DNA from: Candidatus Tectimicrobiota bacterium
Lineage (GTDB): Bacteria; Tectomicrobia; Entotheonellia; Entotheonellales; Entotheonellaceae
Reading direction: 5' to 3'
Assembly (NCBI GenBank): GCA_026005175.1
Contig: BPKO01000001.1
Coordinates: forward strand, 186,001-250,000
DNA length: 64,000 nucleotides
In this document: in pieces, positions 13,536-26,704 of the stretch
Position numbering within the stretch: the stretch's first letter is position 1
Layout of the letters: each line of letters opens with the position of its first letter
Made by a program: the position numbers and the translations under genes
The notes under the pieces: model-generated
Seen by the model: only the letters and a program-made list of their open reading frames with translations
The model's database searches: none
What the model was told of the DNA's origin: nothing

Positions 13536-15098
13536 TCAGTCTGACCTCAAGTGCGGCGGCAGGTAGGAGGCAAAGGCCCCCTGCGGGCGATCGGTGCGAA
13601 AGGCAGGCGGCAGCGCGTCTCCTGTAACCTGGCGCACCATGATGGTATTGGCCCGCACCGCCACCACCTGCCAGGCCCGCCCTGCCAAAGCGAACGTCGT
13701 AGCGACAGGCTCGTGTATCTCGCCGATCAGGCGCCGAGACTGCACATCGATGACCTTGCGAGCCGTACGCTCCGGCACGTTGGAGTGAATACGGCCGCGT
13801 TCGCCCAGGTCCATGACACGCGACGAGGCACCGTAGCGCCCCTGCCGGTATACGAGCAGACCACGGTCCACCAGATGGCCCAGGATGGTGTGCACCTCCT
13901 CTGGTGGGCACAACACCGCGCACACGGATAGCAGCTCCGGCTCTGCCAAGCCCCGCGGGTGGGCAAACAGCAGGGAAAAGAGCTGCTGCACCACCACAGA
14001 GCGGTCGGGCTGGTAGGGGCATGCGTCGAGTTCGCCGCGCTGCGCCGCCCACAACATGGCTTCCACCACGGCTCTTTCGGCCTGTGAGGTGCAGACGGCC
14101 AGGGCACAGGTATGCTGGCGACGCCGATTGCCCCTTCCCACCCGTTGCAGCAAGGCAACCACGCTAGGAGGTGGCTCGGCCAACACCACGGCATCGATGT
14201 TGCCGATATCGATGCCGATCTCAAGGGTCATCGTGGCCACACACACCGCCGCAGGCGCAGTGCGCAGGAAGGCTTCGACCTCTTCTCGCTCACGTCGAGC
14301 CAGGCTACCGTGATGGACGACCACGAGTCGGGCGGGGACGTGAGCACGGGCCTCGATGGCCAGCGCCTCGACACGACGGCGGGAGTTGGCAAAAACAAGG
14401 AGCTTGTGCAGCCGGCGGGTGCGAGCGACCTTGAGGGCTTCGGCGAAGGAGGCAACCAGCATGTACGTCAGTTCGCGCTGCCCTTCTATGATCACCGGAG
14501 TAGGATCGGGGACGTACCGGGCGGCCATAGCCACCGGATCGGCTAGAGTGGCCGATAAGGCGTGCACGCGCAGCTGGGGACCTGTCAGCAGGCGGAGGCG
14601 CTGCAACAAGAGGCGCAGCTGATCGCCGCGGTATGTGCCGTCAATGAGATGGAGCTCGTCGACCACCACTGCCCGCAGCGTCCGGAACACGGCTGGATGG
14701 CGGCAAAGCAGCGCGTCCAGAGCTTCCGGGGTGGTCAGCAAGAAGTCTGTCGCACGGCGGGGCTGGAACTGCGGGCGGTCGCCGGTCCGCACGGCCACCG
14801 AAAGGCCCAGCTCGACCAGGGGCTCCTTAATCCGCACCTCAAGGTCGTTGACCAAGGCCCGCGTTGGCGAAACGTAGAGCACGCCCAGTCCATCTTGTGG
14901 CGCTGCCAGCAGCATCTCGGCGAGCGGTGCCACCACGGCTTCGGTTTTGCCGCTGGCCGTAGGCGACGCCACCACCAGGTTGTCTCCAGCGAGTACCCGC
15001 GGGATGGCGGCGCGCTGGACGGGCAGGAGGCGGCCAAAGCGGGAGAAAAAAGGTCCCCACGTGCGCCGTAGGAGGCGCTTTAGCGCTTCTTGGGTCAC
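13536..15098 (-). CDS. Lhr-like superfamily 2 helicase (BrxHI-like)
   Basis: A 520-aa DExH helicase. The Q-like motif is LLPVQRAA, Walker A ASPTASGKTEA (about 44-54), motif II DELH (147-150), motif III LSATL, and motif VI QRVGRGNRRR. After the two RecA domains (to about residue 350) comes a winged-helix-like stretch (SLLFAHPRGLAEPELL...ILGHLVDRGLLVYRQG), then a C-terminal region of about 110 residues. Overall this is like the front half of Lhr and like BREX BrxHI helicases, which are much longer. It is the last gene of the five-gene operon, 21 nt behind the BrxD-type ATPase gene. It probably translocates on nucleic acid as the effector or sensor motor of the system. Confidence 0.85.
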   Translation of the reverse strand: MTQEALKRLLRRTWGPFFSRFGRLLPVQRAAIPRVLAGDNLVVASPTASGKTEAVVAPLAEMLLAAPQDGLGVLYVSPTRALVNDLEVRIKEPLVELGLSVAVRTGDRPQFQPRRATDFLLTTPEALDALLCRHPAVFRTLRAVVVDELHLIDGTYRGDQLRLLLQRLRLLTGPQLRVHALSATLADPVAMAARYVPDPTPVIIEGQRELTYMLVASFAEALKVARTRRLHKLLVFANSRRRVEALAIEARAHVPARLVVVHHGSLARREREEVEAFLRTAPAAVCVATMTLEIGIDIGNIDAVVLAEPPPSVVALLQRVGRGNRRRQHTCALAVCTSQAERAVVEAMLWAAQRGELDACPYQPDRSVVVQQLFSLLFAHPRGLAEPELLSVCAVLCPPEEVHTILGHLVDRGLLVYRQGRYGASSRVMDLGERGRIHSNVPERTARKVIDVQSRRLIGEIHEPVATTFALAGRAWQVVAVRANTIMVRQVTGDALPPAFRTDRPQGAFASYLPPHLRSD

Positions 15099-15119
15099 GG
15101 CCCGCCCTCTGCAATGCCC

Positions 15120-16469
15120 TCAGGCCCGTGGAAGCGAAGCAGATCCAGGGCTTCCACCGCGGCCTTGACAAAGGCTCTGGTGTGTCCCTGGCAAACTGTG
15201 CCGCAGGCGTGCCATCACTCTTGCCTGTAAGGCTGAAGGCAGGGCAAACCCATAGGCCGCCCGATACAGGTCCACCACTTGCTCGAAGAGGGACTGCCAA
15301 ACTGCGGCCGGCAGCGGTTCGAGGTGCATGCGTGGGAGCGCTTTGAGATAAGGAACTTCCAGCGCTGGGGTGGGCGTAAACGCCAGGATGGCTTTGGTGT
15401 ACGAGGGGCTCCGATACAAAAAACGCACGCGCGCATGGCCGTGGTAGCGAAGCCTTGTCTGCGGCCCGTCCAGGTTCCCTTCTTCTTGCAGCAGCTCAGG
15501 TCGGGACTGGCACGCCCACACCAGCCCTTTGACGAAGTTCTCGCCTCGCGCGAGCTGGTCCCGCGTCACCAGCATGTTGACCACTTCGGCCTCGTCAAAG
15601 AGCAGCAGCAGCCCTTTCCCGCCAAGGCGCCTTGCCACCGCCCATCCCAGGGCCGTGAGAAGGTGGCAGTAGAGGTTTGCGGCCGTGGAGTGGTCATACA
15701 GAATGGGCTTGCACCGGCTCTCACACCCCTCGATCCACGCCCAGCGTTCGGGATCCTCGTCCCCGCGTCGCAGCATCTCCAGCACCGGGCCCAAGTACGG
15801 ATGTGTGAGAAGGTCATGGCTCTGGCGGCTTATGGCACGCAGGAGCTCACGAAAGTCCTGGCATGTGCCGTCTGGAGCACCCCAGCCGAAACTCGCCACG
15901 AGCTTCTGATAAACGCGCTTGGGGCGGTACAGGGGAGCCTCGTTGGCATCAAGCGCTGCTAAGGCAACCGCAAAGCCTTCGTGTAGAGCCAGCATGCGCG
16001 TGTATTCTAGTAAGTGCGTCTTTCCTGCACCGTATTCACCAACCAGCAAAAAGGCACCATCCGGTCCATCGTGCAGCCAGCTCTTGATTTGCGCCACCTC
16101 GGACTCGCGCCCAACGGTGAACTGCGCGACGTGGCTGTGGGGAACAATTCCGAGGCGTAGCGCCTCAATCAGGGTCCGTGCTGCAGAAGGGGCAGAAGAG
16201 AGCGAGGGGGCAGGGGCTGGCGGGGCGGGAGAGGCCTCTTCCTCGAGAGAACAGACGTCTTCGTATCGCACCCACTGCTCTGGCCCGCGCTCGAAGGCCA
16301 CCCGCAGCTCTAGGCCGTGATGCCGCGTCTCCAGGACGGTGCCACGGCCATAAAGGCGGTGCTTGACGAATTTAAGGGCTCGCATGACCCATTGCGGTAG
16401 CCAGTGCATTTTCACAAGACCCCGAAAGCCTTGGGGCAAGAAAGGCTCTGCGTGCCCAAACGCTTTCAC
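15120..16469 (-). CDS. BrxD/DUF2791-type P-loop ATPase with Tudor-like N-terminal domain
   Basis: A 449-aa protein. Residues about 33-72 (FVKHRLYGRGTVLETR, later WVRYEDV) look like the SH3/Tudor-type fold found at the C-terminus of UvrD helicases and in RapA. A Pro-rich linker (80-95) follows. The ATPase has Walker A GEYGAGKTH (144-152) and Walker B LLLLFDEAE (287-295), the sequence style of BREX BrxC/BrxD proteins. It starts at GTG 16469, overlapping the stop of the upstream ATPase gene (GTGA). A later start is possible, but would remove the Tudor-like part. It is next to the Lhr-like helicase, as BrxD is next to BrxHI in BREX types 2 and 6. Confidence 0.75.
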   Translation of the reverse strand: MKAFGHAEPFLPQGFRGLVKMHWLPQWVMRALKFVKHRLYGRGTVLETRHHGLELRVAFERGPEQWVRYEDVCSLEEEASPAPPAPAPSLSSAPSAARTLIEALRLGIVPHSHVAQFTVGRESEVAQIKSWLHDGPDGAFLLVGEYGAGKTHLLEYTRMLALHEGFAVALAALDANEAPLYRPKRVYQKLVASFGWGAPDGTCQDFRELLRAISRQSHDLLTHPYLGPVLEMLRRGDEDPERWAWIEGCESRCKPILYDHSTAANLYCHLLTALGWAVARRLGGKGLLLLFDEAEVVNMLVTRDQLARGENFVKGLVWACQSRPELLQEEGNLDGPQTRLRYHGHARVRFLYRSPSYTKAILAFTPTPALEVPYLKALPRMHLEPLPAAVWQSLFEQVVDLYRAAYGFALPSALQARVMARLRHSLPGTHQSLCQGRGGSPGSASLPRA

Positions 16470-18082
16470 GTGCTTTCGAGGCCCACATCCCGGGCACTGA
16501 CAGGTCCTCCGCGGATACGCAACAGGTGCAGCGCCTGGACCAGGCGCTGCACAAAGAGGCGCTTGTAGCCGGCCTCCCCATAGCGATGCTCGTAGGCAGC
16601 TTGAGCGATCTCGCTAGTTGTTGCGGAAAGATGTGCGCTGTCCAGGGAAGTATCATAGGCTACGGCATAAATCGCTGCGAGCTTGTGCCCGATGGCTTCC
16701 AAGGTAGCGACCGCGTCACTGCCGGCTTTCTCCAGGTCAATCTTCACCCCGGTAGGGTTGATGACGTCGAAGGTGGTGGCCAGGCGCTGCCGCAGCGCTT
16801 CGTAGATCTGCGCTCGGCCCTCCAGGAAGGTTTCGTCTGGCACGGCGTAGAGGCAGAGCGTATGCTTGAAGTGCACCTGCGCACAGGCATCGATGAGCTC
16901 GCGCAGGTTGTGCAGCAGCAACTCACGTTGTCGCGAGCTCAAACTTGGTACCCGTTCGGCTTCGTCCATCAAAATCACCAGCCCGGCATAGCCAAGAAAG
17001 CGCACCCACTGGAGAAGCGACCGCAGCATAGAGAAAGCCGTACTGCGGTCAATACGCTGGAGGATGCCGAGCTTCCCGTGGAGAGAGCGTACATAGCCCT
17101 CGCCTTTGAGCCACTGCATGAGGGTGTCAAAGTCTTCGTCGCGCCGCTCGAGCAAGGCAAGGAAAGCCCCCTGCATGGCCCGCGCAAAGCTGACGCTCTC
17201 AAAGCCACGGATCGTCGCCGCATAGCTGCGGAGCGCTTCCGCAAGCTCGTCTCCCGAGAACCCGGCATGTTCGAGTTCCGCACGCTTTTGGGCGTACCAG
17301 CTCTGCACCAGGCTTTCGATTCCTTGCTCGTAGCCCGATTGGAGTTCGGCTGCTGTCAACGGGCGGGTCAGGTTAAGGGCAACGGCGCGGTAGACCAGTT
17401 CGAGCTTGTGCAAGGGCGTCTGTTCCGGGCTGAGGGTGACATAGCTAACGACAAAACGGTGCCGCCAGGCCCGTTCCCGTACACAGTAGAGAAAGTGGGT
17501 TTTGCCACCGCCGTAAATCCCCACCACCAGCTTGAAGCACGAGCCGCCCTGCTGAATGTAGTCGGCAAGGTATTCCCCTTCGAGTACTTGCAAGTAGTCG
17601 TCAAGGCCAACCGTGAAGTACTGGAAGCCATATTCGGGTGGCGTGCCACTCCCGCCTACGGTGTCGATAATCCGGCGCGCCACCTCGCGCGGCAGCTCTC
17701 CACGGGCCATCTCACCCCTCTCCTGGGAGATACGACTGGGTCGCGGGTTACGCTGGACCATGGCAGGAGACCCTTGGGAACGCTCAAGAGATTGGGAAAG
17801 GAGCTCGTTCTTCACCTCGGGATGCGGGGCTTCCTGGGCTTTTTGCTCCGAGGGGCAAGGGTCGGCGTCTGGGGCACCGGACGTTAGAGAGTCGAAGCGT
17901 GCTCCCATTAGCGTCTTTATAGACTCTTCGGCAATGTAGTAATGACCCGATGTTTTGTCTTGAAGGACCTCTTGAAATCGCCCGCTTACTGTCCAGCGAT
18001 ACACCGTCATCCGCGACACGCCGAGTGTCTTGGCCGCTTCAGGTACGGAGTAGTAAGTCTTACCGGCTATCTCTTTCGGCAT
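16466..18082 (-). CDS. HTH-fused BrxC/BrxD-type P-loop ATPase
   Basis: A 538-aa protein. Residues 9-60 form a MerR/excisionase-type helix-turn-helix (YYSVPEAAKTLGVSRMTVYR, then a wing-like GHYYIAEESIKTL). A low-complexity linker runs to about 125. The ATPase part has Walker A GIYGGGKTH (188-196) and Walker B LVILMDEAE (368-376), with a long helical insert between them, as in the DUF2791 (BrxC/BrxD) family. It starts at ATG 18082. The fusion suggests ATPase activity tied to a DNA site, either as a self-regulator of the operon or as target recognition. It overlaps the next gene by 4 nt. Confidence 0.75.
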   Translation of the reverse strand: MPKEIAGKTYYSVPEAAKTLGVSRMTVYRWTVSGRFQEVLQDKTSGHYYIAEESIKTLMGARFDSLTSGAPDADPCPSEQKAQEAPHPEVKNELLSQSLERSQGSPAMVQRNPRPSRISQERGEMARGELPREVARRIIDTVGGSGTPPEYGFQYFTVGLDDYLQVLEGEYLADYIQQGGSCFKLVVGIYGGGKTHFLYCVRERAWRHRFVVSYVTLSPEQTPLHKLELVYRAVALNLTRPLTAAELQSGYEQGIESLVQSWYAQKRAELEHAGFSGDELAEALRSYAATIRGFESVSFARAMQGAFLALLERRDEDFDTLMQWLKGEGYVRSLHGKLGILQRIDRSTAFSMLRSLLQWVRFLGYAGLVILMDEAERVPSLSSRQRELLLHNLRELIDACAQVHFKHTLCLYAVPDETFLEGRAQIYEALRQRLATTFDVINPTGVKIDLEKAGSDAVATLEAIGHKLAAIYAVAYDTSLDSAHLSATTSEIAQAAYEHRYGEAGYKRLFVQRLVQALHLLRIRGGPVSARDVGLEST

Positions 18083-18154
18083 AAACGCCGTCCCTGGCTG
18101 TGCACCCTTCCTGCTTCTTTGTATTATCCACTGGAGGCTTCTTCCCCTCAGGGG

Positions 18155-19030
18155 TCATTTGGGGATCTCCCGAAAGACCACGTGTGAATACACGGTTCCC
18201 TCCCCGCGTTCGTTACTGGGCACCCAGAGAAAGTCCTGGCGTTTGGTTGTATAGGCACGCGTGGCAGTCACCAGCGCGAACTCGTGGGTGGGCAAACGAC
18301 GCTGCCGCAAGCGGTAGAGATCGTAGCTGAATTGGACCCGCCCGTAGCTGCGGAAGTGTTCCCGCCGGGGATCGGTGTAAAATCGGCGGTCCTGGAGGAG
18401 GAGGGCGAGCTCGACCAGCACGGCGAGAATTCGGGCCGGCTCTCCAGGGGCTTTGCCCTCCCGCTGCACCGCATGCCGGTAGGCGTCGAATAGTCTGGCC
18501 AGAAACGCCTCAGAATCAAAAGGAGCCGAAAGGGCTTGGCGCAGCCGTTGCATTTGGTGAAACACCGCCTGGGGCGTCAGCGGCGCTGTGCCCATCCGCT
18601 CTTGTTTGGGGCCGTACCAGATAATGACGCGTCCGGAGACGGCGTTGACCTCAAGGGTAAACAGACCGGCTCTCAGTTCCGGTAGTTGTCCTCGCAGTTC
18701 CAGGTCCTCAGCGCGCAGCAAGCGCTCGAGCTCGGTGGCAAATCGTTGCTGTATCCCCCGGTGGATATGCTCCAGCTCGTGCTGGTAGACTGTCAGCCAC
18801 TGCCGCACGTCCTGAAGGGCCTGTGGAGATAGCGTTTCGGCTTCCAGGAGGCGTCGGATCTTGTGGGCCTGTTGCTGAAGCTTTTGCAGATTGGTCGCAC
18901 GGTCCTTGTCGAGACGCTCTGTCCGGGCGAGCATGGTGCACAATGTCCGCAGGGTTTTTGCATACGCGCGCACCCGCTGGAGCAGCTGAGAGACAGGAAG
19001 AGTCATCGCGGTCTCCAGGTGACGCTTCAA
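18155..19030 (-). CDS. Unknown 291-aa protein with N-terminal coiled coil
   Basis: No family is recognised. The first 130 residues are strongly helical and coiled-coil-like (repeated Leu/Arg/Gln heptad character). From about 130 there is a beta-rich stretch (AGLFTLEVNAVSGRVIIWYG), then more helices and a C-terminal segment ending SHVVFREIPK. There is no signal peptide or membrane segment. It starts at ATG 19030; an in-frame ATG eight codons later is possible. It lies 102 nt behind the giant ATPase gene and 72 nt ahead of the HTH-ATPase gene in the same direction, so it is probably a subunit or adaptor of the same system. Confidence 0.65.
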   Translation of the reverse strand: MKRHLETAMTLPVSQLLQRVRAYAKTLRTLCTMLARTERLDKDRATNLQKLQQQAHKIRRLLEAETLSPQALQDVRQWLTVYQHELEHIHRGIQQRFATELERLLRAEDLELRGQLPELRAGLFTLEVNAVSGRVIIWYGPKQERMGTAPLTPQAVFHQMQRLRQALSAPFDSEAFLARLFDAYRHAVQREGKAPGEPARILAVLVELALLLQDRRFYTDPRREHFRSYGRVQFSYDLYRLRQRRLPTHEFALVTATRAYTTKRQDFLWVPSNERGEGTVYSHVVFREIPK

Positions 19031-19132: not shown

Positions 19133-22100
19133 TCAGGGACGCCGCGCCTTGGTAACCCTGCGGTGGAGGAGGGCCGGAACGTAAACTTTTGTCTCTTCTG
19201 CGAGTTCGACCAGCGCCCCCCGGTAGAGCAGCCGCCAGAGGCGCTGCTGCGCCACCTCGAATGAGAGGTGCAACTCTGTGGCGAGGAGCTCGACCGTGGT
19301 GGCCAGGTCTTCTGGCTGCTCCGGCTCCAGCCATTCTGACAGGCATGCCAAGGCGTCCATGAGGTCCCGCTGTCCTTCGAGCCCCAGTTCCGTCAAGAGG
19401 TTCCGAGCAGTCCTGGCGGCGTGGGCCTGGCGGCTGCCGTGTCGCAAGGCCTGCAGCCACTCGTCGACCAGGAAGTGGTACCCTGCGGTTTCGGCATACA
19501 GGGCTTCCACGTCATGCCCGGTGACCTCCAGTTCCTCTAGGGCCCGGCGCAGGGCTGCCTTGGACCACGGTTCAAGACGCAGTGCCCCTATCGCGTCTTC
19601 GATGCCCTTTGCCTTCTCGCGGTCCTGGGCCAGCCAGTGGTCCACTCCCGCCGGGTCGATAAGGCATACGACTCTGCCAGAGCGCGCTTTGGCAAGCTGG
19701 GCAGCCACTGCTTCCAGCACTGCGGGCACCAGCTCCGCCGCTTCTGGCCAGCACAGCACCATCACTGGCCGCGCCGCAGACGAGCCTGCGGACTGCAAGG
19801 CAGCTCGCAGGCCACGTAGCGGCCCGGTGAGCTGCCACGGCCCCCCTGCCGCGCCCAACTCTCCGAGCACCTCGAGGACTGCCTGTACCTTTTCCAAGCC
19901 CACGGCGGGGCTGCCAAACAGCAAAGTCAAGCCAGGGGCATACGCCCCGAGTCGGCGCAGCTGGCCCTGCGTCAGAGGGCTCCAGACTTCCCGGCCGCGG
20001 AGGACGAGCCGTGGGTGAAGACGGTCCATTTGCTCCCATGGCTCTTCTTGGAGCTGCCCGAGAGCCTCAAGCAGCTCGTCCTCCACGCGCTCGCGAGAGC
20101 CCAGCAGGCGGACCAAATTGGGACTCCGCAAGCGGAAGCCTTCCCCTTGCTGGACCAGCACGCCCATGGCTTCGAGTTCCTCGGTATACTCCCGGACTTG
20201 CTCCGGCCGGAGGCCACGGAATCCTTCTGGCCACCATGCTGCGCCCAGCTCCCCGAGCTCCCCAGCTGTGTAGGCTCGGGAAAAGCCGTTAGCGGCTTCC
20301 ATCTGATCCAGGATCATCGCCCGCACCATGACCTGATAGTGCGGATCCAAAGCCAGCGTCCAGATAAAGCGGTCACGCACCACTTGCTGGAGTTGCGGGT
20401 CGGCAAAGAGGGCCTCCAGATCGGCAAGAGTCACGCGGTCAGGGGGAAGGCGGCCGCTCCCTCTAAGTTCTCTGACGAGCCGCTCGCAGAAAGTCTGAAG
20501 CAAGCCTGGATGGTAGTTGGTGATGCCCAGAAGACCCAGCAATGCCTGATCTTCCACTTCGTAGCCCAGCAAGCGCATGGGCTCCAGTACCAGCGCCCGT
20601 GCCGCCCGGGGCTCCAGCGGCCCAATCCGTTCCTCGCTGCCGCCCAGAGGTTGGTTGGGCAGGTGCCGGAAGCGCCGCACGCTCTTGAGGCCGGCAAACA
20701 CCAGGCGCAGACGCCCGCCTGTGGTTGTTTGCAAGGTGTTGAGGCGTCCGACGTTGTCAAAACCCTTGGCAGCGTCGGCTTGTAGGAACTGATCGGCTTC
20801 GTCCAAAAGAAGCAGGACTCTCAAGCGTGGCTTGCTCTGGAAGAGGGCTTGCAGCCGCTCGACGACTTTCGGAGGGTCGTGGAGGGGGCGCAACGCCGCA
20901 TCGATGTGGGAGAAGGCCTCCGTGATCAAACGTCGCCACACCTGACGGGGGTCTGCTTCTACCCCGCCTGGCAGGCCTAGGTTTTTGATATCTAGGACAA
21001 AGGCGTAGCGGTCCTCCTGCGGATGGTGGAATTCCCGCTCCACGGCCCGCAGCAGAGCCGATTTACCAAGCTGGCGGCCGCCGTAGACGTAAACCGTCGA
21101 AGTGGCTGCCAGAATCCTAGCCACGATTTCTCGGCGCCCGAAGAACATCTCTGGGGGAAGATCCAACCCGCGGACAGAGGCACGGTAGGGGTTGATCGCT
21201 GACCAGGGAAGGGCACAGGCAGCAAACGTGTTGAAGCGAAGTTCATACTCTCGTGCCAGGAAAGAAAGGAGCACCTCGTCCAGGACAAGGCCACGGAATC
21301 CCTGCTGAAAGGCCCAGCGTGCCAGGTCCTGGCGCTGCCGCCAGAGCAGTCGGCCCAGGTAAACCACGATCAGCGGTTCCGTGGGCAATACGCCACTGCC
21401 AGAGAGGATGGCCTCCAGTTGCGTCACCCCCGGGCGCTCCCAGACTACGAGAACCCGCACCTCGCCGCGTGCTTCCGAACCAAACTCCGGCACCGGCGCA
21501 CCCACCTGCGCCCGGACACGCAGCAGCACCCAGTCGCGCCCCTCTTGGCGTTGCAAAACGGCCTCCTGGACGTAGGGCACCTCATATCCCAAGTACCGCA
21601 GCAGCAGCACAGCCTGCCGGTCCAAGGTCTGCGGCGCTTCTCGCCGTTTCATCCCTGTCCATATCCGGAAGGCCTCAACCACCTGCTGGGAGCGGTCCCG
21701 CGGAAGGCGGGGGATTCCCAACTTTGGATACGGCTCCCCTGGAGTCAAGCGCCCAGCAATCTGCTGTAGATCGGTTCTTTCTAGCGTCTCGCGGAGCTGC
21801 TCGAAGGCTCTCAAAAATCCAGGCAAGTCGGCTCTTGCCTGGAGCTTGGCTTTCTCTATGAGGTGTTGGAGGCCCTGGGACTGCCCCGCCACGGCCGCTT
21901 GCTCGGCGTAGACGAGCAGCTCATCGGCGGCATACAGGTTTCCTTGGTCTAACGCTTCTTGCACTTGGCGCTCGAGCTCACGGTAGCGGTCAGCGGGAAG
22001 GAGGTCACACATCCGCTTGGCAAGCTGCTCCCACTTCTGCCGGCGCGCGTCGACGGCCTGCTGGCGGCGTTCTGCTAGCTGGCGGCTGAGCACCACCAAG

Positions 22101-24550
22101 CGCTCGCGCACCTCTGCCCCTGGCACCCGCCGCTCGGCGAGATCGACTTGGAGTTGCTCTAGCTGGGTCAAGAGATTCGTGCGCTCGTCGAGGGGAATGC
22201 TGCCCTCCACAACGCGCTGTTCCACTTCGCATGCTAGCTGCTCTGCCTGCTGCCGCAGCTCTGTCAGTCGGTCTTCGATGCGCTGCAGCTCTTCTTGCAA
22301 AACCCTGCGCTCGTTCCCTTCCGGAATTTGCGCGATGAGCTCCTCTATCCACCGCAGATCCTCCTGCACCAGCCACTCGCGCACCAGCGCCGGCAGGCGC
22401 GCCGGATCAGGCCCCGGCATTCGCTCTAGCGCTTCTTGGAGGGCTTCCCAGGCTTCGGGTCTCACTTCAGGAAGCCCAAGTGGCGAGAGGGTGAGCGGCA
22501 CCTGCGGGCACCAGAGGAGCCGTCGGGCCAGGGTAACTTGCAAGCTCTGCAGCGCTTTCTCCCCTGCCTGCTGAGGTTCTTGGTGAAGAACCGCCTCAAG
22601 CTGGCGTCCAAGCGCGAGGAATACCCTGGCCAACGCCGGGGTTTGGCCGTCTCCGTGGCTGGCCACCTCTTCCAGCACGGCCAGCGCCCTTTGTAGCCCC
22701 GGGCGCGTCGCTGCAAGGAGCTGCCTGACGGGCTCTTGACGCCAGGAGTGCACTTGCCCACCCGCAAGCAAGTCGAGTCCCCGAATCCACCGGCGGGCGA
22801 TGCCTACTGCCCGATTGACCTCCTCGAGCAGGCGCAGCCGCCGGTTTCCTTCGAGGTGCTGGGGGCTATGTCCTGTATCGATGAGGACATGCCGGTGCAG
22901 CCGTTGGAGGCGCTGCTCCAGCCGGGCGCTGTCTTCGAGTTCCTCGATGTGCTCTCTTACCGCAGGGGCTTCAGCTCGCGCGTCCTGTGCGACCGGCGCC
23001 AGGAGCCGGTACAGGAGATTGTCGTTGCCTTCGCTGTGGGTCAGGGCGCGGAAAACCAGGTTGCCAGGCAAGTAGTTGCCACAGGGGTTGCGGTGGCCAG
23101 CACGGTCCAAGTACGCCCGCGCTTCACGAGACGCCGCTTCTACCTGAGCGCGGAGCGCCGCCGTGTTCTGGGCCTCTGCGAGGTCTTCGGGCTGCAGTCC
23201 CCCGCCCGTACGGGCCACGAAGTCGCGCACGGCCGCAAGCACGGGGTTGAGCACGTCCAGCGGTGGTCGCAGCTCCTCTAGCCAGGCGTAGGTCGTCGCT
23301 TCGGGCCCCAAGAGGCTGAGGGGGAGAGCCGCCGCGGCTCTGAGTCCTGGGGGGCCCCCGGTCTGCATGGCCTGGGCTATGGCCTCGCGTATCTCTGCCA
23401 GCAGCGGCTGCACCTCTGGCCAGGCCTGGGCGACTGCTCGCGCCCCCAGCAGCGCGTTGAGGAGGGCGCTGGGGGCCGGCGGCACCTCTCCCGTGGCTTC
23501 GACGGCCCGGGCCCACCAGTAGGCTCCCTCCCAGTCTCCACGGGCCAGAAACGTCCACAGGGTCTGAACCGCAGGAAGAGGCGCCTCCTCGCCTGTGACC
23601 TCAGGAATTGGACCTTCTGGTGCCGGCCCGGGAGGTGGGGGTGCTGGCGCCACAGGGACACTCGGTTCGGGTTCTGTGCCCGGTCTTTCGAGACTTCCTT
23701 CTTCGCTACCTTCCTGCCGTTGCAACATGGCCGTGAGGTCTTGCTCGAGGCGTCGGGCCGTTTCCTGGAGCTGCCCGAACCGCTGCTGCTCTGCGTGGCC
23801 AACAGCAAATGGCTGCCGGGCAAACATCTCTCCCAGGGTCTTGAGCTCCTGGAGGCAGCAAGCAAGCTGGTCAAGCTGCTCTGTCGCCTCGTCTAGCTGC
23901 TCTACCGGGCAAGCCTCGGCCGACCACGCTGTGACCCCCCTAAGGTTGAGGTCGGCTGCCAGAGCCCGAACCGCTTCCAGCGCACTGGCCACCCTGCGCC
24001 TGGCATCGCGCACGGCCCGCTTTTCGGCCCCCAAGGCGAGGAGCCGCTCCCGCACCGCCTCTACGTGGTCCCATTCGGGGGCCTCCGCAGGGAGGGCGGC
24101 GAGCTCCGCAAGAAAGCGAGAGAAGCGCTCCGGGAGGTCAGCCGGGGACTTGTCTGCTTGCATGATGTCGGTTCCTTCCTGGGGCCAAGCTCGCAAGCGA
24201 GCCACTGCTTGGGCCAGCGCCCACGCCTCTGGTGCTATCTCCGGAGGCCCTTCGCCCGGGCTGCCATGAGGCTCTGCGCGCAGGGCAGCCCGGGCCTGCG
24301 TCACCAGCTCTTCGTGCTGCTCACCCCAGCAGCAGGCGAGCTCGCAAGCCAGGGAGGGAAGCCATTCCAGAGTGGCCTCCAGGGCCTGCTGGACACGCGG
24401 CGCAGGGGCTGCCAGGGGCGTTCGGAAGCCGGGAATGCGGCCCCGCAGAGCTTCGACGAGCACCTGCCGCAACCGCGGAAGCCCCTTCTGCGCCGCCGCC
24501 CATCGGGCCAGGTACGAACGGACCTCAGGAGCGAGGAAAACGTCCATCAT
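19133..24550 (-). CDS. Giant 1805-aa coiled-coil/AAA (ORC/STAND-like) protein
   Basis: Residues 1 to about 960 are almost wholly alpha-helical with long coiled-coil stretches and a Pro-rich break near 290-330. About 970-1090 is a mixed alpha/beta segment (LLLRYLGYEV...VRVLVVWERPG) of unknown fold. An NPYRAS...FFGRREI lead-in introduces an ORC/Cdc6-like or STAND-like NTPase with Walker A GGRQLGKSALL (about 1157) and Walker B RVLLLLDEADQF (about 1242). A winged-helix-like region (MGVLVQQGEGFRLRSPNLV) lies near 1450-1490. A second NTPase-like domain from about 1540 has a degenerate P-loop (FGSPAVGLEK). The start at 24550 is chosen over GTG 24595 because GGAGAG stands 7 nt before it and a promoter lies just upstream. 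First gene of the operon. Confidence 0.8.
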   Translation of the reverse strand: MMDVFLAPEVRSYLARWAAAQKGLPRLRQVLVEALRGRIPGFRTPLAAPAPRVQQALEATLEWLPSLACELACCWGEQHEELVTQARAALRAEPHGSPGEGPPEIAPEAWALAQAVARLRAWPQEGTDIMQADKSPADLPERFSRFLAELAALPAEAPEWDHVEAVRERLLALGAEKRAVRDARRRVASALEAVRALAADLNLRGVTAWSAEACPVEQLDEATEQLDQLACCLQELKTLGEMFARQPFAVGHAEQQRFGQLQETARRLEQDLTAMLQRQEGSEEGSLERPGTEPEPSVPVAPAPPPPGPAPEGPIPEVTGEEAPLPAVQTLWTFLARGDWEGAYWWARAVEATGEVPPAPSALLNALLGARAVAQAWPEVQPLLAEIREAIAQAMQTGGPPGLRAAAALPLSLLGPEATTYAWLEELRPPLDVLNPVLAAVRDFVARTGGGLQPEDLAEAQNTAALRAQVEAASREARAYLDRAGHRNPCGNYLPGNLVFRALTHSEGNDNLLYRLLAPVAQDARAEAPAVREHIEELEDSARLEQRLQRLHRHVLIDTGHSPQHLEGNRRLRLLEEVNRAVGIARRWIRGLDLLAGGQVHSWRQEPVRQLLAATRPGLQRALAVLEEVASHGDGQTPALARVFLALGRQLEAVLHQEPQQAGEKALQSLQVTLARRLLWCPQVPLTLSPLGLPEVRPEAWEALQEALERMPGPDPARLPALVREWLVQEDLRWIEELIAQIPEGNERRVLQEELQRIEDRLTELRQQAEQLACEVEQRVVEGSIPLDERTNLLTQLEQLQVDLAERRVPGAEVRERLVVLSRQLAERRQQAVDARRQKWEQLAKRMCDLLPADRYRELERQVQEALDQGNLYAADELLVYAEQAAVAGQSQGLQHLIEKAKLQARADLPGFLRAFEQLRETLERTDLQQIAGRLTPGEPYPKLGIPRLPRDRSQQVVEAFRIWTGMKRREAPQTLDRQAVLLLRYLGYEVPYVQEAVLQRQEGRDWVLLRVRAQVGAPVPEFGSEARGEVRVLVVWERPGVTQLEAILSGSGVLPTEPLIVVYLGRLLWRQRQDLARWAFQQGFRGLVLDEVLLSFLAREYELRFNTFAACALPWSAINPYRASVRGLDLPPEMFFGRREIVARILAATSTVYVYGGRQLGKSALLRAVEREFHHPQEDRYAFVLDIKNLGLPGGVEADPRQVWRRLITEAFSHIDAALRPLHDPPKVVERLQALFQSKPRLRVLLLLDEADQFLQADAAKGFDNVGRLNTLQTTTGGRLRLVFAGLKSVRRFRHLPNQPLGGSEERIGPLEPRAARALVLEPMRLLGYEVEDQALLGLLGITNYHPGLLQTFCERLVRELRGSGRLPPDRVTLADLEALFADPQLQQVVRDRFIWTLALDPHYQVMVRAMILDQMEAANGFSRAYTAGELGELGAAWWPEGFRGLRPEQVREYTEELEAMGVLVQQGEGFRLRSPNLVRLLGSRERVEDELLEALGQLQEEPWEQMDRLHPRLVLRGREVWSPLTQGQLRRLGAYAPGLTLLFGSPAVGLEKVQAVLEVLGELGAAGGPWQLTGPLRGLRAALQSAGSSAARPVMVLCWPEAAELVPAVLEAVAAQLAKARSGRVVCLIDPAGVDHWLAQDREKAKGIEDAIGALRLEPWSKAALRRALEELEVTGHDVEALYAETAGYHFLVDEWLQALRHGSRQAHAARTARNLLTELGLEGQRDLMDALACLSEWLEPEQPEDLATTVELLATELHLSFEVAQQRLWRLLYRGALVELAEETKVYVPALLHRRVTKARRP

Positions 24551-24615
24551 GGCGGTACTCTCCATGCACTTGCCAGCCACGGTGAGCCGTGCCACCTGCT
24601 ACCGGCTTGGGTCGC

Positions 24616-24806: not shown

Positions 24807-26096
24807 ATGATTCGACGGGTTCGGGTGGCAGGATACAAGTCCCTGCGGGATGTGCGTCTGGACCTGCGCCGTCTAACGATCGTCATAGGTCCCAATGCTT
24901 CGGGAAAAAGCAATCTCTTCGATGCCCTCAAACTCCTGAGCCGGATTTTAACCAGCCGCTCTCTCATCGAGGCTTTCGGAGACCATCGAGGAGACCCGTT
25001 AGAGGCTTTTGATTTCGGTGAGAGCGGCATCTCAGGTCTCCTGAGAAAGCCAGAAGTCCAATTCACGATTGAAGTAGACGTCGAGCTCGAGGATGACGCC
25101 ATCCGGCGAGCTGAGCAACAAATTCAGCAATATCGCTCTTCCGAACAGAAGAATAGCGATAAGGGAAAGCCCCGGCGAATCATTGAGCGCCTGCTTCGTT
25201 ATCGGATTGCTGTCGCTATGACCCCAGAGACCGGGGTATTGCGTGTCATCGATGAGTACTTAGCGGCGTTGCAAGAAAGTAGCAAGGGCGGTGAAGTGGA
25301 CGTAAAAGTGAACCGCCTTCCTTTTCTGGAGAAGACGAAAAACCGATTGCGGCTGCGTATGGAAGGACAGGCACGGCCCACAGAGTATGAAGTCGGGCTC
25401 AACTATGCCATTGCTTCCCAACCCGTCTATCCTCCCCATTACCCCCATCTGGTTGCTTTTCGCGAAGAAGTATCGAGCTGGCAGTTTTACTACTTCGAGC
25501 CCCGGCTTATGCGCGAGGAAAATCCGGTTAAGGAGGCTTGCAGCCTAACTCCATACGGAGGCGATCTGGCAGCGTTTTATTACACGCTCAAACTTAAGAG
25601 GCCAGAGCAGTTCTATAACCTTCAAAAATCTCTCCGCATGATTGTGCCGACTATAGAATCGATTGATGTGGAATTGACGGAAGAAGGCAGGCTCCGACTG
25701 CTCGTTCGCGAGCACGGGGTGAATTTTTCCGCCAAAGTCATCTCCGAGGGAACCCTGCGGCTACTGGGACTGCTCGCCATTTTGAGCCCAACAAATCCTG
25801 CGGCCGTGGTGGGCTTTGAGGAACCCGAAAACGGCGTGCACCCGCGTCGGTTGAAACTTATTGCGGACCTGCTCAAAAACGCCTCCCGGAAAAAGCAAAT
25901 TGTCGTAAACTCCCACTCCCCTTTGCTGCCTGACTACTTGGCCGACGACTATCTGGTAGAGTGTAAGAAGTCTGACGGATACAGTGTGTTCAGACCGCTC
26001 GCAGCCGTTGGCCTCTTTCGCAGACCCGCTGTGGAAGAAGCACTCGAAGAGGTGACCCCGGTATCCCACAGGATCCTGCGCGGAGACTGGGAATGA
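24807..26096 (+). CDS. OLD-type AAA ATPase (AAA15/AAA21 family)
   Basis: A 429-aa SMC/RecF-like ATPase. It opens with the typical IRRVRVAGYKSLRDV strand, then Walker A GPNASGKSN (28-36). The C-terminal half has the signature-like ISEGTLRLLGLLAIL, Walker B GFEEPENGVHP and the H-loop VVNSHSPLLPDYL. Unlike GajA or OLD nucleases, no TOPRIM domain follows in the same chain; that role seems to be in the next gene, whose ATG overlaps the stop (ATGA). Base composition is visibly more AT-rich than the flanks, a sign of transfer. ATPase plus separate TOPRIM-like partner recalls PARIS and AbiL defence pairs, but identity is not shown. Confidence 0.82.
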   Translation: MIRRVRVAGYKSLRDVRLDLRRLTIVIGPNASGKSNLFDALKLLSRILTSRSLIEAFGDHRGDPLEAFDFGESGISGLLRKPEVQFTIEVDVELEDDAIRRAEQQIQQYRSSEQKNSDKGKPRRIIERLLRYRIAVAMTPETGVLRVIDEYLAALQESSKGGEVDVKVNRLPFLEKTKNRLRLRMEGQARPTEYEVGLNYAIASQPVYPPHYPHLVAFREEVSSWQFYYFEPRLMREENPVKEACSLTPYGGDLAAFYYTLKLKRPEQFYNLQKSLRMIVPTIESIDVELTEEGRLRLLVREHGVNFSAKVISEGTLRLLGLLAILSPTNPAAVVGFEEPENGVHPRRLKLIADLLKNASRKKQIVVNSHSPLLPDYLADDYLVECKKSDGYSVFRPLAAVGLFRRPAVEEALEEVTPVSHRILRGDWE

Positions 26097-26704
26097 GCAG
26101 GCCGGCCGTCGTGGTCTGCTTCTTTGAGGATATAGCACAGGAAAAATTTATCACGACTTTGGTTCAGCGTGCTGCCCAGCAGGTGCGAATTTCTATCCGC
26201 ATCGAAGTGCGCAATGCAATCCGCGGCAGTCACGTGTGGAATGAATTGCAGGATTACCTCAGAGACTTGCGGAGCAGGGTAGAACCCTTGCCTGACGTCC
26301 TTGTGGTTGTGATCGATGGAAATTGCAAAAAGGCATCTCAAGTGCGAAGAGAAATTCAAAGCAGGGTTCGACAATTAGTGCTTCCATTGCCTCAGGAATG
26401 TGTCGTCTGTGCCATTCCCGATCCCCATATCGAGCGGTGGTATCTAGAAGATCAACAAGCGTTCTCTCAAGCAATACCCAATGCTCAGGCTCGGAAACTC
26501 CGATACAAATGTGAGCGTGATCGCTATAAGATGGCCCTTTACGAAGCGATTCTGGCATCTGGTGTGGAACCACTGCTGGGAGGTGCAGAATACGGGAATG
26601 ATATCGCCTCTAGACTTGACCCCCAACGCCTTGACCGCTCCTTTCAAAAGTTCTGGGGGGAGCTGGTTAGAGCTTTTCGAGCTTTAAATGTCAGCGGGGA
26701 GTGA
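26093..26704 (+). CDS. TOPRIM/DUF4276-like putative effector of the ATPase pair
   Basis: A 203-aa protein. Features matching TOPRIM-type folds are an early acidic FFEDIAQEKFI (Glu12), a central VVVIDGN (Asp75) and the IPDPHIERWYLED box (Glu114, Asp120), which recalls the DUF4276 and DUF4435 families linked to OLD-type ATPases. The C-terminal DIASRLDPQRLDRSFQKF also fits DUF4276. It starts within the stop codon of the ATPase gene, so the two products are made together. It is likely the nuclease or toxin half of a defence pair; the catalytic residues are assigned by pattern only. Confidence 0.65.
   Translation: MSRPAVVVCFFEDIAQEKFITTLVQRAAQQVRISIRIEVRNAIRGSHVWNELQDYLRDLRSRVEPLPDVLVVVIDGNCKKASQVRREIQSRVRQLVLPLPQECVVCAIPDPHIERWYLEDQQAFSQAIPNAQARKLRYKCERDRYKMALYEAILASGVEPLLGGAEYGNDIASRLDPQRLDRSFQKFWGELVRAFRALNVSGE

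Follow-up and report, generated by a model that had tools for sequence, protein, structure and literature searches.

A giant bacterial protein with one active-type and one inactive STAND-like domain belongs to a widespread, apparently unnamed ATPase family that is probably anti-viral

We define "the window" as the whole 64,000-nucleotide stretch of DNA that was analyzed (contig BPKO01000001.1 of assembly GCA_026005175.1, positions 186,001 to 250,000), which derives from a Candidatus Tectimicrobiota bacterium. An open reading frame on the minus strand of the window, at 19133-24595, encodes a "giant" protein of 1820 amino acids counted from a GTG codon; an inner ATG at residue 16 gives 1805 aa and matches the start at 24550 used in the initial annotation. 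The source genome (3.99 Mb, 77% complete) and G003, the record OY282375 from an uncultured Candidatus Entotheonella, are members of one family. The genes and features at the locus are as follows.

13536-15098, minus strand: short Ski2/Lhr-type DEAD/DEAH helicase, 520 aa (padloc BrxHI 1.8e-77, SngC 3.5e-71)
15120-16469, minus strand: second BrxD-like ATPase, 449 aa (PF10923, E 1.6e-19)
16466-18082, minus strand: HTH_17 plus BrxC/BrxD-type ATPase, 538 aa (PF10923, E 5.9e-52; padloc BrxD and SngB)
18155-19030, minus strand: p291, coiled-coil plus alpha/beta, first gene of a four-gene cassette (no significant profile matches)
19133-24595, minus strand: giant STAND/ORC-type ATPase, 1820 aa (1805 from the inner ATG; open reading frame, about 500 relatives, alignments A1, A2 and A4)
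19136-19429, minus strand: C-terminal winged-helix-like part of the giant, residues about 1723-1820 (AF2 secondary structure; weak wHTH matches)
19436-19990, minus strand: predicted second, inactive STAND-like domain, residues about 1536-1720 (AF2 topology, hhalign with domain 1, tandem-AAA Foldseek matches)
19889-19915, minus strand: degenerate P-loop GSPAVGLEK, residues 1561-1569 (GK[ST] in 0 of 57 homologs)
20060-20395, minus strand: helical or winged-helix-like part, residues about 1401-1512 (AF2 secondary structure)
20396-21172, minus strand: active-type STAND/ORC ATPase, residues about 1142-1400 (Pfam AAA_22, below cut-off here; Foldseek 2qen)
20792-20812, minus strand: Walker B LLLDEAD, residues 1262-1268 (D1265, E1266 and D1268 invariant)
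21059-21082, minus strand: Walker A GGRQLGKS, residues 1172-1179 (canonical in 70 of 70 homologs)
21203-21700, minus strand: mixed alpha/beta domain, residues about 966-1131 (AF2 model, conservation)
21824-24595, minus strand: N-terminal half, residues 1-924, mainly helical (composition only)
24807-26096, plus strand: AAA_21 ATPase, HEC-01A/MAD3-like, divergent neighbor of the giant and a separate module in the defense island (profile matches)
26093-26704, plus strand: DUF4276 protein, HEC-01B/MAD4-like, gene overlapping that of the AAA_21 ATPase (profile matches)

Homologs align with the giant over almost its entire length, indicating that the open reading frame is a true gene and did not arise by chance. 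With the help of a relative in G003 (1925 aa, 32% identity across the whole length), 84,980 species genomes were scanned under the guidance of a profile, and 497 stretches that encode relatives were recovered. The analysis was carried out on the best 80 of these 497, a choice biased toward the relatives closest to the two seed proteins, with genes at unannotated loci called by a simple codon-usage caller. The best 80 loci fall in the Chloroflexota, Cyanobacteria, Actinomycetota, Acidobacteriota, Myxococcota, Bacillota, Pseudomonadota and others. The distribution is very patchy, a clear giant (E < 1e-100) being present in 5 of 386 sampled genomes. Giants also occur on conjugative plasmids, and one more, with the HEPN-type partner described below, lies in a viral contig; none was found in phage records. 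The window giant has no significant match in PADLOC, NCBIfam or PDB sequence searches, and Pfam returns AAA_22 alone, at a sub-threshold score (residues 1168-1307, 23.0 bits against a cut-off of 27). The searches of Pfam, NCBIfam and PADLOC gave no name for the family, and neither did the literature searched; as that literature lay largely outside subscription papers, the lack of a published name is not proof. The giant belongs to a widespread and apparently unnamed family of bacterial ATPases, which are probably anti-virus alarm proteins.

The initial description of one part of the giant as an ORC/STAND-like ATPase with intact Walker A and B motifs is supported. Both motifs are essentially invariant among about 80 homologs, and the canonical Walker A signature (G-x4-GK[ST]) is present in all 70 homologs in which the first domain was scored. 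AAA_22 is matched at E ≤ 0.01 by 21 of 22 homologs, L018 alone being noted above the family cut-off. In the 80-row alignment the ATPase core is strongly conserved (YGGRQLGK, LLDEAD, FAGLHNVQR, TNYxPxLIQ). An AlphaFold2 model of residues 925-1820, built with 70 homologs, has a mean pLDDT of 88.5 and a pTM of 0.77, and its top Foldseek match in the PDB is 2qen, a Walker-type ATPase of P. abyssi (E 2.3e-8, TMt 0.70). Avs3, ORC/Cdc6 and tandem-AAA proteins rank next, all as whole-model matches with no per-domain coordinates. The tandem-AAA proteins p97, NSF and Rix7 align with the model across about 620-720 columns at low TM, presumably because the orientation of the domains differs. A viral fold library returned generic AAA matches and nothing more. 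The winged-helix or helical part that had been expected behind the ATPase is visible in the AF2 secondary structure, at residues about 1401-1512.

The initial annotation had also placed a second NTPase-like domain with a damaged P-loop near the C-terminus, and modeling of the kind it called for, here with AF2 followed by Foldseek, supports an NTPase fold there. The order of elements in the model is b1, P-loop site, a1, then b3-a3-b4 and an alpha lid, with a TGGW-like motif. An hhalign comparison with domain 1 (P 1e-4, prob 57%) brings the two P-loop sites into register, and likewise TNYxP with TGGWP. The assignment to an NTPase fold is a good one, resting on predicted topology and a modest profile score. 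The P-loop is degenerate, as had been supposed, but the lesion is not special to this copy: GK[ST] is missing in all 57 homologs, and degeneracy of the second P-loop is therefore a trait of the family and not damage to the window copy. Domain 2 is predicted to be an inactive STAND-like domain shared by the whole family, of the same general kind as the iSTAND domains of BREX and of MoxR-vWA. Pfam iSTAND is not among the 25 families listed for the C-terminal region of the giant; one full-length homolog has a single iSTAND match, which is not localized to any domain.

The N-terminal half, which diverges among homologs in the 80-row alignment, unlike the ATPase core, carries a Pro-rich linker near residues 300-345; it had been called near-wholly helical, of which "mainly helical" stands, from composition alone. 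The mixed alpha/beta segment before the ATPase is a real and conserved domain, with secondary-structure order a-a-b-b-b-a-b-a-b-a in the AF2 model. G1003 and D1106 are invariant, FGS 1038-1040 is strongly kept and W979 is conserved. Its strand order could be compatible with a restriction-endonuclease-like fold. The further suggestion that it could be nuclease-like is not supported, for neither a PD-(D/E)XK motif (D plus (E/Q)xK) nor any other catalytic motif is recognizable in the alignment of residues 966-1131, and an active nuclease was rejected on that ground. A search of the PDB by sequence profile found no solved relative of this domain, and its matches to EF-hand proteins and ribosome recycling factor (E ≥ 0.011) were taken as chance.

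In most of the relatives examined, the giant has a tightly coupled companion. A HEPN-type gene on the same strand adjoins it in 48 distinct loci, nearly always at position +1, and 41 of the 45 +1 partners counted either overlap the giant or are separated from it by 10 nt or less. The partner protein (220-480 aa) carries, toward its C-terminus, an R-x4-H motif (RNxLAH) in which R400 and H405 are invariant in 44 of 44 sequences, 41 of them fitting RNxx[AS]H. Pfam HEPN_Swt1 is matched by 13 of the 44 (best E 1.8e-5). The AF2 model of the partner (pLDDT 94) has an ORC/Cdc6-like NTPase fold without Walker A at the N-terminus, which is also the part ranked first by Foldseek, followed by long C-terminal helices of the kind a HEPN domain would have. 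Motif and model together point to a degenerate-NTPase plus HEPN (Rx4H) protein that is a predicted RNase. Other identities were set aside: PDC-M34B (a single match, E 3e-4, too isolated), pPIWI_RE_Y (a single match, E 0.004, too weak) and an apparent Walker A in the partner of locus L026, which lies off the P-loop site. Directly upstream of the Entotheonella giant-HEPN pair in L007 there is a 1267-aa SIR2_2 protein (L007:3241-7044) together with a Type ISP restriction enzyme.

The two genes travel together. Four of the five genomes with a clear giant have the partner adjacent, the fifth being the window's own, and no partner without a giant was found among the 386 sampled genomes, except for one doubtful match (E 9e-4). 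Tight overlap and co-occurrence are what a toxin-antitoxin-like pair would exhibit, in which the giant merely keeps the HEPN protein inactive. We consider that arrangement improbable, however, because the size and architecture of the giant are far beyond those of an antitoxin, and because giants persist with partners other than HEPN proteins and, in the window, alone.

The partners of the giant are exchanged in several lineages. In Streptosporangiaceae and Frankia it is paired with a beta-CASP metallo-beta-lactamase nuclease, mostly with a 4-nt overlap, and cyanobacterial giants have a PLD-SNF2 helicase gene alongside. Two cyanobacterial giants that were tested (L057:5819-13189 and L041:6032-13222, about 2400 aa) have an entire sigma70 factor (regions 1.2, 2, 3 and 4) at the N-terminus, a fusion that is a possible link between infection sensing and transcription. 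Matches to MzaA in two homologs were discounted, as they cover the sigma70-bearing N-terminal extension only and not the ATPase. Three actinobacteria (L048, L058 and L064) have a conserved set upstream of the giant, composed of helicase proteins of 1623-1823 aa, which by sequence look DinG- and RecQ-like, and a protein of 735-784 aa, for which no Pfam match was found in L048. On plasmids of Bradyrhizobium (L113:137-9439) and Azospirillum (L114:254-10024), pPIWI-RE is fused to the N-terminus of the giant to make proteins of 3100-3256 aa (PF13032, E 4.7e-25 and 1.6e-32); these keep the HEPN partner, which then bears an extra C-terminal P-loop domain. The alternative partners nest within HEPN-partnered clades, with 13 changes on the tree versus 23.2 in shuffles, so that the HEPN partner looks ancestral, on a tree whose rooting was not inferred.

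One generalization of this pattern, which we offer tentatively, is that the giant serves universally as a sensor-switch hub with exchangeable outputs: a HEPN RNase by default, beta-CASP, PLD-SNF2 plus sigma70, DinG/RecQ or pPIWI-RE elsewhere, and the p291-BrxD-BrxD-helicase genes in the window. The ORC/Cdc6-like fold, the winged helices and the cyanobacterial sigma70 fusion would also fit an ORC-like factor with a housekeeping role on DNA or in transcription, and no part in conflict. A gene of that kind would hardly be limited to 5 of 386 genomes, scattered over phyla, borne on plasmids and accompanied by nuclease partners that vary, and we regard this explanation as very improbable.

We infer instead, with confidence a little above even, that the giant is the sensor or switch subunit of a conflict system, probably anti-phage, with a HEPN RNase as its output, and that the window copy is orphaned or re-coupled. 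The link to conflict systems had been suggested at the outset, and it gains support from the BrxD-helicase and HEC-01/MAD3-4-like neighbors in the window and from the HEPN partner in relatives. The mechanism is read from those relatives, because the partner is absent from the window. The divergent N-terminal half would sense the invader or the state of the cell; the active ATPase would then exchange nucleotide and change the assembly. The inactive STAND domain of the giant may dock the partner, which itself has an inactive STAND-like part, and the HEPN RNase, once freed or dimerized, would cut RNA and halt growth or the phage. In the window's own genome, which has lost the HEPN gene, the giant would be an orphan or would have been re-coupled to the p291-BrxD-BrxD-helicase cassette. 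About 500 detectable relatives in many phyla have one live and one apparently dead STAND domain and are tied to a predicted RNase, yet they are nameless in the resources searched. Should the giant prove to be a sensor whose outputs can be exchanged, it would offer a tractable route to how a STAND switch addresses very different effectors, and a handle on the repeated appearance of inactive STAND domains in bacterial immune systems.

Comparison with known systems places the giant near several of them. STAND and ORC-Cdc6-type ATPases (AAA_22, ATPase_2, nSTAND1; 2qen) share its intact Walker A and B motifs, helical lid and winged-helix-like part, but the giant adds the inactive STAND-like domain, the alpha/beta domain and a roughly 920-aa N-terminal half, and it has no solved sequence relative. 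iSTAND components (BrxB/BrxF, the PglW C-terminus and the MoxR-vWA iSTAND) have a STAND fold without Walker A and are proposed to act as sensors or switches alongside an effector (PMC12839542, PMC7159879). The giant differs in holding an active and a predicted inactive STAND in one polypeptide, with a further inactive one in the HEPN partner; its neighbors showed neither MoxR nor vWA genes. In BR systems, HEPN_Swt1/Abi2-family RNases are fused to DUF499 AAA+ proteins (PMC3710099, PMC12839542). Both couple a Swt1-type HEPN, which in the giant pair is a predicted one, to an ORC-like AAA+ ATPase, whereas in the giant pair the HEPN is a separate gene, DUF499 is matched by neither protein, and the regular methylase-helicase set is missing. 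Avs proteins (8dgc, Avs3) are likewise giant STAND NTPases and were matched by Foldseek, but padloc Avs profiles do not match the giant, and its effector, in relatives, sits in a separate gene. The pPIWI-RE systems are connected through the RNaseH domain of pPIWI-RE fused to the giant in the Bradyrhizobium and Azospirillum plasmids. No PIWI of the pPIWI-RE family was found in the window's genome, and the available portion of the 2013 description of the three-gene pPIWI-RE island reports no such ATPase (PMC3702460). With its partner the giant would behave like a STAND sensor-effector pair, and the tests run did not place it in Avs, BREX or Shango.

The window copy departs from the family pattern. 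No HEPN partner was found in the source genome (77% complete; G003 as positive control); a search of the genome with Pfam HEPN_Swt1 gave no match in the positive controls either and so carries no weight. Given that this gene is missing, the giant there is either an orphan or re-coupled to the downstream cassette, whose first gene, p291, begins 102 bp past the giant's stop on the same strand. The possibility that p291 is a degenerate HEPN partner was dismissed, the two being unrelated by hhalign (prob 0.3). In the tree the window giant falls inside a clade of HEPN-partnered giants, with L011 as its sister (100% SH-aLRT). Its end branch is long (1.1 vs a median of 0.62), and of the 70 most conserved columns it differs at 6, a number that ties for the largest among the giants, with the ATP site intact. 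The conserved ATP site suggests that function has been retained, while the long branch and the departures would also fit relaxed constraint. In L011 the HEPN partner is in two pieces (14617-15852; 159 and 235 aa), through a frameshift or an assembly error, and a relative's copy in G001 contains stops; together these make loss of the giant system in this group plausible.

The cassette (window 13536-19030) recurs in about 10-11 other genomes (L102-L112), mostly standalone and with varied upstream genes, and no fifth gene shared upstream of p291 was found across cassettes. Neither p291 nor a BrxD gene was found in the called flanks of other giant loci, and p291 was not found on plasmids; the linkage of giant and cassette is seen in the window genome only. 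These distributions, the loss of the HEPN partner, the broken genes in L011 and G001 and the long end branch are consistent with the giant and the cassette being independent modules side by side in a defense island, the giant an orphan heading for loss. Against this stand the intact 1820-codon frame with every ATPase motif retained and the cassette lying on the same strand just 102 bp away, and we hold the reading to be quite plausible, if short of probable. For the window copy we place it ahead of re-partnering, in which the giant would drive the BrxD-loaded helicase of the cassette in place of the HEPN RNase. Precedents for a swap exist in the beta-CASP, PLD-helicase and DinG/RecQ partners, with overlapping genes and nested in HEPN clades, and the window giant itself lies within such a clade, its neighbor cassette co-directional. 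It is a single instance, however, the 102-bp gap exceeds the usual overlap and the cassette is self-sufficient elsewhere, so that we think re-partnering rather unlikely. Both possibilities concern the window copy only, and both are compatible with the explanation of the family as the sensor or switch of a conflict system.

In composition the cassette resembles the type-2 BREX BrxD-BrxHI dyad and Shango SngB-SngC, with a BrxHI/SngC-like helicase downstream of a BrxD-type ATPase, but differs from both in having two BrxD-like ATPases and p291 as its first gene. The BrxD equivalog score in the cassette, 150 bits, is below the cut-off of 350. PglZ was not found in the genome bin (77% complete), and with p291 giving no padloc match to SngA, only SngB/SngC-like genes are present at the locus. 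On the other side of the giant, and divergent from it, the AAA_21 and DUF4276 pair at 24807-26704 forms an additional defense module.
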